A stretch of 64,000 nucleotides of DNA from Pengzhenrongella sicca (GTDB lineage: Bacteria > Actinomycetota > Actinomycetes > Actinomycetales > Cellulomonadaceae): positions 3,782,001 to 3,846,000 of the forward strand of contig NZ_CP071868.1 of assembly GCF_017569225.1 (NCBI RefSeq), given 5' to 3'. The position numbers were made by a program, and so were the translations under genes. How positions within the stretch are numbered: position 1 is the first letter of the stretch; every line of letters starts with the position of its first letter. Positions 36,673 through 42,976 of this stretch are shown here, piece after piece. The notes beneath the pieces were generated by a model. The model saw only the letters and a list, made by a program, of their open reading frames with translations, searched no databases and had not been told where the DNA came from.

Positions 36673-37929
36673 TCAGCCGCAGCTCTCGTTCGACAGCCCG
36701 CCCACCCCGCCCAGCAGCCGGTTGGAGCACTGCACGACGTTCTCGTTCGCGGGCCGCAACGCCACCAGGAAGCCGTCCGGGTCGTCGCCCAGCGAGCCGG
36801 TGTTCTCGGCGAACACGTTGCCCGTGCCCCAGCCGTCGGACACGTCGTGGGTCTGGAACCCGTCCAGCACCGTGGCGCGGCCGACGTTGCCGGTGATCGC
36901 CCAGTCGTTGCCCTTGACGTCCACCCACGAGTCGGCCTCGACCAGCCCCGAGCCGTCGAACTGGTTGCCCTGCACGAGCCCGCCGGTCGTGCCCTCCTTG
37001 ACGTCGATCGCCTCGCTCGTGGTGGCGTAGACGAGGTTCCCGATCACGCGGTTGTGGTCGCTGAGGTCCGGTTCGCAGTCCGAGACGTCGCACCAGTTGC
37101 TGTGCGCAGTGCCGATGTAGACGCCCTCGCCGAACTTCGGCTTACGCCGCCCCGTGTCGCTGATCGTGTTCCCCTCGACGAGGGTGTCCGTGCTGCCTCC
37201 GCGCAAGTGGATCGCCTCGTCCCCGATCCCGTAGACGGTCAGCCCGCTCAGGACGGATCCGGTCGTGCCGTCGGCCATGACCCCCTTCTGGGCGTTGCGG
37301 ACCGTGAACCCCTGCAGCACCCAGAACTGCGCGCCGTCCAGGTGCAGCGCGTAGCCCTTCTCCTGGTTCCCGCCGTCGATCACCGCGTCGGCCGGCCCAC
37401 ACAGGCGCGCGGGGCGCTCGGGCGAGCCGGAGGCCGTGGCGACGAAGTTGCCGGTGTACACGCCCGCCGCGAGCCCGATCACGGTGCCGGGCCCGGCACC
37501 GTCGAGGGCGGCCTGCAGTTCGGCCGCGTCGCCGACCCGCACGGTCGGCGCCGGGCAGGGCGCCGTCGTCGGGGTCGGGGCCGACATCCAGTCCGGGATG
37601 GCCGACGGCGCGTCGAGGCTCGCGAGGTCGCCGTCGTCGTCGTCGCCGTCGTCGTCGTCGTCGTCGTCGTCGTCCGGTGGATTGTCGGTCGCATCGTCGG
37701 TCGTGCCGTTCGTTGGCGCCAGCGGGGCTCCGGCCGTCATGTCGGTCACCTCCGGCTCCGGTCCCAGCGTGGCCTCCTTCGTCGCCGGCCCGGTCGCGTC
37801 GGACGTGCCGGTGCAGCCGGCGGAGACGACCAGCCCGGCCGCGACCAGCGCGGCCGTGGCCAGCAGCCGACGACGCCGCCGGCCCGCCCTGCCCGTCACG
37901 GCGCCGTCGGTCGCGGCGCCAGCCGTCAC
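36673..37929 (-). CDS. Right-handed beta-helix lipoprotein with poly-Asp linker
   Basis: 418 residues from ATG at 37929, overlapping the stop of the previous minus-strand gene by four bases. Arg-rich start (RAGRRRRRLLATAALVAAG), lipobox VSAGC, then a linker containing about 15 Asp residues in near-unbroken runs (residues ~85-100). The remainder is a parallel beta-helix (Pfam beta_helix/NosD-like) with FTVRNAQKGVMADG, AIHLRGGSTDTLVEGN, KFGEGVYIGTAHSNW, AIDVKEGTTGG and SWVDVKGNDWAITGN. The last motifs recur in the secreted paralogue at 41624. Beta-helix proteins in polysaccharide loci are lyases, epimerases or binding scaffolds; no canonical DPHD epimerase site is seen. Third gene of the GT2 operon. 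Confidence 0.85.
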   Translation of the reverse strand: MTAGAATDGAVTGRAGRRRRRLLATAALVAAGLVVSAGCTGTSDATGPATKEATLGPEPEVTDMTAGAPLAPTNGTTDDATDNPPDDDDDDDDDGDDDDGDLASLDAPSAIPDWMSAPTPTTAPCPAPTVRVGDAAELQAALDGAGPGTVIGLAAGVYTGNFVATASGSPERPARLCGPADAVIDGGNQEKGYALHLDGAQFWVLQGFTVRNAQKGVMADGTTGSVLSGLTVYGIGDEAIHLRGGSTDTLVEGNTISDTGRRKPKFGEGVYIGTAHSNWCDVSDCEPDLSDHNRVIGNLVYATTSEAIDVKEGTTGGLVQGNQFDGSGLVEADSWVDVKGNDWAITGNVGRATVLDGFQTHDVSDGWGTGNVFAENTGSLGDDPDGFLVALRPANENVVQCSNRLLGGVGGLSNESCG

Positions 37930-41623: not shown

Positions 41624-42976
41624 TCAACCGCACGCCACGTTCGCTCGACCGAGCCCGGCTGCGGTCACGGTGTTGTCGCACCGCACGACGTTGCCGGTCG
41701 AGCTCGCGTTGTGGATGCGGAACCCGTACCCGGCCGAGTTCACGGTCGCCGTGTTGGCGGTGAAGGTGTTCCCCCGGCCCCACCCCGTCGCCACCACGTG
41801 CGTCTGGAAGCCGTCGAGCAGCGCGGTCGTGCCGACGTTCGCCGAGATCGTCCAGCCGTTGCCCTTGACGTCGACCCAGGAGTCGGCGCTGTTGAGACCG
41901 GCCATGCCGGCGCCGTTGAACGTGTTGCGGGTCAGCACGCCGCCGGTGGTGCCCTCCTTGATGTCGACGCTCTCCGCGCCCGTCGCCCAGATAGCGTTCC
42001 CGCTGATGACGTTGCGGTCGCTGGCGTCCGGCGCACCGCCCGAGTAGGTGCCCCAGTTGGACACCGCCGACCCGATGTAGATGCCCTCGCCGTACTGCGG
42101 CTTCGAGACCCCGACGTCGTGCACCTGGGAGCCGCGGACGACGTTGTCGCTGGAGAACGCACGCAGGTGGATACCCTCTGCCCCGATCTGCGCGACCTCG
42201 ACGCCGTCGACGACGGCGTGGTCGGTCTCGTCGAGCACGATGCCCTTGCTGGCGTTGCGCACCGTGAACCCCGCGAGGGTCCAGTGGTCGGCGCCGACCA
42301 GGTGGAGCCCGTAGTGCTCGCTCAGCCCGGCCCCGTCGAGGACGGCCGCGCGGGCGCCGCGCAGCGTGCAGGGGGCGGCCGCGGTGCAGCCCCGCGCGAT
42401 CGTGAACTGTTGCTTGGCGGTGTAGACGCCGTTCGCGAGCACGATCGTCCGGCCGGGTGTGGCCGCGGCGAGGGCCGCCGTCAGCTCGGCGCCGGTGCGG
42501 ACCGTCACGGTCGAGCCCGCCCCGGGCGTCGGACTCGGGCTGGGCGTCGGGCTCGGCGTCGGACTCGGGCTGGGCGTCGGGCTCGGTGTCGGACTCGGGC
42601 TAGGGCTCGGCGTCGGGCTCGGCGTCGTCGTCCCGCCGACCGTGAACTGCGCGGCCAGCCGACCCTGCTCGCCCTCGGAGTCGTAGAGGCGGACGTCGAC
42701 CTCGTGCGCGCCGGCGCCGGCCTGCATCGGCCACGAGAACGGCAGCGTGAGGTCGATGCCGAGGTACTCGCCGTCCAGCCGGAACTTCGCCTTGACCGTG
42801 TTGCCGAGGTCGGGGGCCGTCACCGTGAACGTCGCCGGGACGACGGCGCCGGCCAGGGTTTTCCCGCCGGACCCGAGGCCCGGCGGCTCGGCCGCGGCCG
42901 CCGCGGTGGCGCAGAGCAGGACGAGGGCCGCCGCCGTGCCGGCGGCGAACCAGGGGGTGTGCCGTCTCGTAGTCAT
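41624..42976 (-). CDS. Secreted right-handed beta-helix protein, paralogue of the lipoprotein at 36673
   Basis: 450 residues from ATG at 42976; ATG 42997 is equally possible, neither has a clear ribosome-binding site. Signal peptide (GTAAALVLLCATAAAAA), a ~100-residue beta domain, a Ser/Thr-Pro linker of about 35 residues (TPSPSPTPSP type), then a beta-helix of ~290 residues with GEGIYIGSAVSNW, SVDIKEGTTGG, SWVDVKGNGWTISAN and LLDGFQTHVV. These line up with the lipoprotein at 36673. Linker and architecture resemble secreted polysaccharide-active enzymes with an accessory binding domain, so pectate-lyase-like or epimerase-like activity is possible but unproven. Confidence 0.87.
   Translation of the reverse strand: MTTRRHTPWFAAGTAAALVLLCATAAAAAEPPGLGSGGKTLAGAVVPATFTVTAPDLGNTVKAKFRLDGEYLGIDLTLPFSWPMQAGAGAHEVDVRLYDSEGEQGRLAAQFTVGGTTTPSPTPSPSPSPTPSPTPSPSPTPSPTPSPSPTPGAGSTVTVRTGAELTAALAAATPGRTIVLANGVYTAKQQFTIARGCTAAAPCTLRGARAAVLDGAGLSEHYGLHLVGADHWTLAGFTVRNASKGIVLDETDHAVVDGVEVAQIGAEGIHLRAFSSDNVVRGSQVHDVGVSKPQYGEGIYIGSAVSNWGTYSGGAPDASDRNVISGNAIWATGAESVDIKEGTTGGVLTRNTFNGAGMAGLNSADSWVDVKGNGWTISANVGTTALLDGFQTHVVATGWGRGNTFTANTATVNSAGYGFRIHNASSTGNVVRCDNTVTAAGLGRANVACG

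Follow-up and report, generated by a model that had tools for sequence, protein, structure and literature searches.

A 64,000-nucleotide stretch of the Pengzhenrongella sicca genome (contig NZ_CP071868.1, positions 3,782,001 to 3,846,000; hereafter the window) carries on its minus strand a set of genes centered on a processive glycosyltransferase of family 2 (GT2). The set is a real, conserved synthase-dependent polysaccharide operon of Actinomycetota, and apparently an undescribed one; no description of such an operon was found in the open-licence literature, subscription papers being outside the search. Its product very probably contains glucuronic acid (GlcA), and we lean, with modest confidence, toward a secreted GlcA polymer, most likely beta-1,4-polyglucuronate (glucuronan) or a close derivative. 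These gradings, and that given below for epimerization, are judgements and not computed values. A first-pass annotation, made from the sequence alone, had suggested a possible undescribed synthase-dependent exopolysaccharide system at this site, and the conserved neighborhood supports the suggestion.

All four open reading frames delimited in that annotation were confirmed. The GT2 gene (40022..41404) encodes 460 residues with N-terminal and C-terminal membrane helices. It is followed by the gene for an AlgG-like right-handed beta-helix protein (37926..40025; 699 residues, with a signal-like N-terminal segment and a C-terminal membrane helix) and by that for a predicted lipoprotein, LIP (36673..37929; 418 residues), a putative beta-helix polysaccharide lyase of the PsAly type. 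A secreted paralog of this lyase, SEC (41624..42976; 450 residues, with a signal-like N-terminus and a Pro/Thr/Ser linker), is encoded upstream, 219 bases from GT2. The GT2 stop and AlgG-like start codons overlap in GTGA (40022..40025), as do the AlgG-like stop and LIP start codons (37926..37929), so the three genes are probably cotranslated; of the couplings annotated as GTGA and then ATGA, the first is right and the second wrong. The host genome has a single good match to the window GT2 and two lyase copies, both within the window.

A scan of named genomes gave 232 relatives of GT2; the best 80 yielded 79 loci, 69 of which hold at least 7 kb downstream. An AlgG-like gene and a lyase gene are present on the same strand in all 69, and a gene for uridine diphosphate (UDP)-glucose dehydrogenase (Ugd) in 62, in the conserved order GT2, AlgG-like, lyase, Ugd. 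The profiles used were built from the window GT2 and four relatives, the window AlgG-like protein and six others, the two window lyases and four others, six Ugd relatives, and a single sequence for family PL14. Five relatives from the same family as the host have the GT2, AlgG-like and lyase genes in this order, and the dehydrogenase comes next in the four whose contigs are long enough. Carriers include Cellulomonas, Sanguibacter, Arthrobacter, Microbacterium, Kribbella, Streptomyces, Actinomadura and Actinoplanes. When the called genes of 82 loci were clustered, every further same-strand family was confined to 8 loci or fewer; the calls for this clustering were heuristic and recovered the core four families in only 52 to 68 loci. 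Most of the remaining neighbor families, among them the largest unnamed one (28 of the 82 loci), are encoded on the opposite strand and resemble shadow open reading frames; two upstream opposite-strand families are found in 15 loci each.

Co-occurrence, which the first-pass annotation proposed as a check in Actinobacteria, is also seen at the level of genomes. Among 150 genomes of the family, the GT2 clade (at least 53% identity) and the AlgG-like profile select the same seven, and the lyase profile above 400 bits selects those seven again. The chance that two sets of seven coincide is 3.4e-12 under independence of genomes, which does not hold. One of the seven (G066) has, in this order, Ugd, GT2, an AlgG-like protein with the DPHD motif and a PL14 lyase, and a PsAly-type lyase is encoded elsewhere in the genome; glucuronan lyase activity is also known from family PL14. 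The distribution of the operon is patchy: GT2 was found at E 1e-60 in 5 of 396 genomes drawn across the phylum, and the AlgG-like protein at E 1e-25 in 20 of 394 drawn across the class, the host's own genome included in both.

Contigs labeled Stenotrophomonas maltophilia P13 (L060) and Vibrio cholerae 35D (L066) carry a GT2 of the window type, the latter with the whole operon. The GC content of V. cholerae is about 47%. Since that of L066 is 66%, far above this value, L066 is probably actinobacterial contamination, and L060 (63% GC) is left undecided. Both were omitted from alignments A2–A4 and from the tree; L066 is counted among the 69 loci, and L060 among the 79 but is too short for the 69. 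Locus L059 is outside the 69 because the GT2 taken for it is the second one, which lies at the edge of the locus.

By sequence, GT2 is closest to the hyaluronan synthase (HAS) and NodC types, and it has both the fold and the membrane architecture of that type. The family assignment, the DSD motif (40958-40966) and the Q-x-x-R-W motif (QRIRW, 40541-40555) of the first-pass annotation stand; the third acidic motif, which it read as ED, is GDD (D247-D248, 40661-40666), invariant across 40 aligned GT2 sequences including that of the window. The nearest solved structures and the nearest sequences are HASs. In a structural comparison of the predicted model, the top 13 rows are all HASs, several with bound UDP-GlcA or a GlcA-extended primer, at about 20% identity; this comparison, like that of the AlgG-like model, re-ranked only the best chains of Foldseek, so absence from the list does not tell against a family. 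The score in the NCBIfam NodC model (141.3 bits) is below its cut-off of 550. The scores in the cellulose synthase model (17.6 bits against the NCBIfam CelA cut-off of 699) and the poly-N-acetylglucosamine synthase model (48.7 bits against the PgaC/IcaA cut-off of 422) are far too low. In the window, a 15-base tandem repeat (40051-40150) encodes a Val-Val-His-Ala-Pro repeat near the GT2 C-terminus, in a poorly conserved tail.

A second GT2 clade, about 30–34% identical, was observed in genomes of the same family (L039–L052); 12 of the 14 loci have Ugd at a distance of about 2 kb. In L039, a gene between this GT2 and Ugd matches glycosyl hydrolase family 26 (1.9e-11), and a similar-looking gene is found in L043. 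These loci look like a parallel synthase operon in which a hydrolase replaces the epimerase-like protein and lyase.

The closeness of HAS in structure and sequence, together with the presence in the operon of Ugd, which suits any GlcA polymer, agrees with the reading that GT2 makes a GlcA heteropolymer of the hyaluronan, heparosan or pneumococcal type 3 kind, with two alternating sugars, and that the GlcA of this polymer is the target of the AlgG-like protein and the lyase. However, the substrates for which the operon lyase family has been characterized are homopolyuronates: polymannuronate (PMC6796002) and, for an enzyme related to one member, glucuronan (PMC13235733). No gene for a second sugar stood out near the operon in the 82-locus clustering, as judged from sequence starts, and glmM, located beside the window copy, has no match above 60 bits in 20 loci, six of which carry the operon. 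We consider a heteropolymer unlikely, though it deserves to be kept in view.

The fourth gene, Ugd, could not be seen in the first-pass annotation, since it is absent beside the window copy; the host gene is about 58 kb from the operon (L030). UDP-GlcA supply beside the synthase, as expected of a glucuronan locus, is a feature of the 62 loci and is placed elsewhere in the host. The dehydrogenase of L033 scores 330 bits with a UDP-glucose dehydrogenase (4a7p) and 182 bits with a guanosine diphosphate (GDP)-mannose dehydrogenase (1mfz), and the host copy 324 and 178 bits with the respective types. All 70 dehydrogenases above 200 bits in the 82 loci are nearer to the host UDP-glucose dehydrogenase than to a rhizobial AlgD (median 496 versus 178 bits). 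The rhizobial protein was labeled AlgD from its gene order and itself scores 228 bits in the same dehydrogenase profile; the dehydrogenase of L066 is among the 70, and a few of the 70 sit outside the operon.

These scores bear on the reading that the operon is a Gram-positive alginate (polymannuronate) operon with Alg8-, AlgG- and AlgL-like genes. The AlgG fold, the DPHD motif in two related operons and the preference of PsAly for polymannuronate (PMC6796002) agree with it. Nevertheless, the dehydrogenases near the operon are all of the UDP-glucose type, and no GDP-mannose 6-dehydrogenase was found in the host, whose three nucleoside diphosphate-sugar dehydrogenases are of the UDP-glucose type, of the UDP-N-acetylmannosamine (UDP-ManNAc) type and, for the third, nearest to UDP-ManNAc types but below the cut-off. 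There is also no match to PF01050, which we take to be the domain of AlgA-type enzymes, and none to MBOAT; PilZ, annotated as missing, is indeed absent from the operon, the only match in the genome being about 1.5 Mb away. The dehydrogenase class and the host gene content make alginate improbable.

LIP and SEC are classified by sequence as PsAly-type polysaccharide lyases, not as epimerases. Against PDB sequences, LIP gave one match, PsAly (6kfn; E 6.4e-40), which we take to be a member of CAZy family PL31, and the match to the lyase family profile (A3) is 6.1e-73 over positions 23-282. On this homology, the reading of all three beta-helix proteins as epimerases was rejected for LIP and SEC. 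The paralog of the lipoprotein that the first-pass annotation observed upstream of GT2 is correct, SEC being 48% identical to LIP over LIP residues 108-418; L033 and L035 also have SEC upstream of GT2. The termini of the AlgG-like protein, LIP and SEC fit, by eye, the transmembrane, lipid and secreted anchoring annotated for them, but the lipid anchoring is not conserved: the N-termini of 18 relatives carry a lipobox in some cases and a hydrophobic segment in others.

The catalytic residues of PsAly are Tyr184 and Lys221, its first cation site consists of Glu181, Glu216 and Asp219, and Lys128, His154, Arg156, Asp250 and Lys252 are conserved (PMC6796002). All these residues have counterparts in LIP and SEC by motif and spacing, the predicted catalytic pair being Tyr271 (37117-37119) and Lys311 (36997-36999) in LIP, and Tyr300 (42077-42079) and Lys340 (41957-41959) in SEC. 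In alignment A3 (the two window lyases and 49 of 99 listed homologs), the equivalents of Lys128, Arg156, Glu181, Tyr184, Glu216, Asp219, Asp246, Lys252 and His278 are present in all 51 sequences, those of His154 and Lys221 in 50, and those of Asp250 and Gln276 in 49. The second-site Tyr244 is not kept, the position being Glu in LIP and, over the 51, Gly (29), Glu (12), Asp (5), Ala (3) or Ser (2). We do not treat it as family-defining, since the Y244F mutant of PsAly is still active (42 ± 2, Table 2 of PMC6796002). An extra lyase copy in L088 (3865-4809) has Ile and Arg at the His154 and Lys221 positions, respectively, and may be inactive or changed in activity.

As to substrates, PsAly prefers polymannuronate, on which the lyase family was characterized (PMC6796002). 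Alginate is the typical substrate of PL31 enzymes, and ClGP, which is 61% identical to a GH5-PL31 enzyme, is reported to have both alginate and glucuronan lyase activity (PMC13235733). The two lyase copies in the window, and PsAly-type lyases in operon-free genomes, could also be taken to mean that the cluster breaks down an external polyuronate instead of making one. We regard this as highly improbable: a processive GT2 in the membrane and Ugd serve synthesis, none of the neighbor families in at least 5 of the 82 loci was recognized as uronate-catabolic (judged from sequence starts), and transporter-like neighbor families occur in 7 loci each.

The AlgG-like protein is predicted to be a long right-handed beta-helix of the AlgG type, both by profile and by modeled structure, although the window protein (25.6 bits) and even that of L038 (96.5 bits) miss the 700-bit cut-off of the NCBIfam AlgG model (NF038177). 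In the profile alignment, H376 (38898-38900), R377 (38895-38897) and R401 (38823-38825) correspond to AlgG His319, Asp320 and Arg345, as we take these to be numbered. In alignment A2 (the window protein and 57 of 100 listed homologs), the His and the two Arg residues are retained in 57–58 of the 58 sequences; the catalytic-type His (H376) and the carboxylate-shielding-type Arg (R401) are kept in 57 each, the exceptions being Gln in L099 and Pro in L088, respectively. The DPHD motif, annotated as missing, is indeed absent from the AlgG-like protein, LIP and SEC. It is replaced by VMHR in the window AlgG-like protein and by a hydrophobic-hydrophobic-His-Arg pattern in the clade, DPHD being seen only in the relatives L038 (Ugd-GT2-AlgG-PL14) and L161 (GT2-AlgG-lyase). 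The position of AlgG Tyr314, the water/proton donor, is D371 in the window and Asp (40), His (12), Asn (4) or Gly (2) over the 58. The comparison with alginate systems drawn in the first-pass annotation is sound in light of the profile, the predicted structure and these two operons. The GT2 tree places the DPHD-type operons outside the main clade with weak support and long branches, and we claim no direction of change.

In 20 of the 79 loci, two or more AlgG-like matches were observed downstream of GT2, mostly as tandem duplicates in Thermomonosporaceae and Streptosporangiaceae; in L076, L080 and L081, for example, both copies have the His-Arg motif.

The replacements at DPHD and Tyr314 point to a reading in which the AlgG-like protein of the window clade has a role other than epimerization: that of a lyase, of a scaffold that binds the chain, or of a guide for its translocation. 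Lyases and epimerases have early steps in common (PMC4444821). A passive scaffold, however, would hardly need the conserved His and two Arg residues. We take this reading, which is compatible with a glucuronan product, to be a serious contender, if somewhat short of probable.

The pathway that we favor, leading to glucuronan, would proceed as follows. Ugd, by homology, would make UDP-GlcA, from the fourth operon gene in most relatives and from the distant gene in the host. The HAS-like GT2, judged by homology and fold, would polymerize UDP-GlcA and export the chain by a channel that it forms in the membrane itself, which would make both a PilZ co-polymerase and an outer-membrane porin dispensable. 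The C-terminally anchored beta-helix may grip the emerging chain outside the membrane, where its conserved His and Arg would probably abstract the C5 proton and convert some GlcA into iduronic acid (IdoA), as AlgG does on mannuronic acid (ManA); since the motif is altered, this activity is not assured, and we hold such epimerization to be possible but doubtful. The tethered lyase, with its catalytic residues in place, would cleave the polymer by beta-elimination and so set it free or shorten it, in the manner of AlgL in alginate systems, and the secreted copy would act further out. The arrangement would parallel the alginate line with UDP-GlcA in place of GDP-ManA. A beta-1,4-linked GlcA polymer is favored because it fits both the lyase families, which act on homopolyuronates, and the UDP-GlcA supply; a hyaluronan-like heteropolymer or alginate fits only one of lyase type and dehydrogenase type.

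Several points weigh against this assignment. The co-occurrence count ignores kinship among genomes, and the uniformity of the neighborhood is partly selection, since the 79 loci are those most like the query. PsAly-type lyases (best scores 83 to 292 bits) are found in 9 of the 150 genomes without the operon, so the lyase family has other uses too. The window operon and 7 of the 69 loci have no Ugd, and Ugd is not specific to the window-type operon, since the second GT2 clade has it nearby with other partners. Since HAS works with two sugars, GT2 might likewise build GlcA into a heteropolymer. Both PL31 and PL14 appear among the alginate lyase families of PMC9029943 and PMC9227215, PL14 in the former. 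Whether the window AlgG-like protein is active as an epimerase is uncertain, since neither DPHD nor Tyr314 is kept. Product and activities are predicted from sequence and modeled structure.

The genes and loci for glucuronan biosynthesis were stated in 2023 to remain unknown (PMC10180729). Glucuronan is a studied bacterial exopolysaccharide, and the four-gene candidate makes the question of its biosynthesis genes directly testable. The operon would carry the alginate logic of synthase, beta-helix modifier and lyase over to Gram-positives, with a different sugar as its basis, and might offer a bacterial route to polymer-level IdoA relevant to heparin-like materials. In its fullest version, the proposal makes the operon the first gene set known for a bacterial polyglucuronate and places the AlgG-derived His-Arg beta-helix in a new class of glucuronyl C5-epimerases that work at the polymer level, here giving a Gram-positive alginate-like GlcA/IdoA polymer; this version is speculative and, taken as a whole, rather unlikely.

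The operon is bordered by genes for a diguanylate cyclase (33646-35313) and an OmpA-family predicted lipoprotein (35373-36605, plus strand), the latter convergent with the operon in this Gram-positive host. The OmpA gene was found in only 2 of 20 tested loci (L033 and L035), between the secreted lyase and GT2, and the cyclase in none of the 20 except for a partial match in L050. No regulatory RNA was found with Rfam in window positions 30000-46000, and no simple promoter or terminator pattern in 41300-43200. Near-identical tandem ISL3-type transposase genes (19445-20755 and 20863-22224) share 407 identical positions in an ungapped comparison.

Alginate biosynthesis in Pseudomonas involves Alg8, Alg44, AlgG, AlgL and AlgD. 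Like that system, the operon brings together a GT2 synthase, an AlgG-fold beta-helix, a polyuronate lyase and a sugar-nucleotide dehydrogenase, whereas it differs in its UDP-glucose instead of GDP-mannose dehydrogenase, HAS-like GT2 and PsAly-family beta-helix lyase, in lacking PilZ within the operon and MBOAT genome-wide, in its Gram-positive host, and in the loss of most DPHD motifs. It thus works like the alginate line without being a member of it. With HAS (Chlorella virus HAS, Xenopus HAS1) and NodC, GT2 has in common the fold, membrane helices, GDD and QxxRW motifs and UDP-sugar donors, but the identity to HAS is low and the operon adds AlgG-like and lyase partners, which to our knowledge HAS systems do not have. 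The homology of LIP and SEC to PsAly, an enzyme from Paenibacillus sp. FPU-7, covers catalytic domain and active site; the PsAly gene, however, adjoins chitinase genes (PMC6796002), whereas LIP is probably membrane-tethered and encoded in a synthase operon. Two unannotated Rhizobium megaplasmid loci (L137 and L138) have a dehydrogenase, an Alg8-like and an AlgG-like gene, by order and sequence starts; they look like alginate clusters, and the rhizobial AlgG matches were dropped as a link to glucuronan producers. If the operon makes glucuronan, its product would be the same polymer as that of Sinorhizobium meliloti M5N1CS and Peteryoungia rosettiformans, and S. meliloti, too, makes a glucuronan lyase, thought to shorten the glucuronan (PMC10180729).

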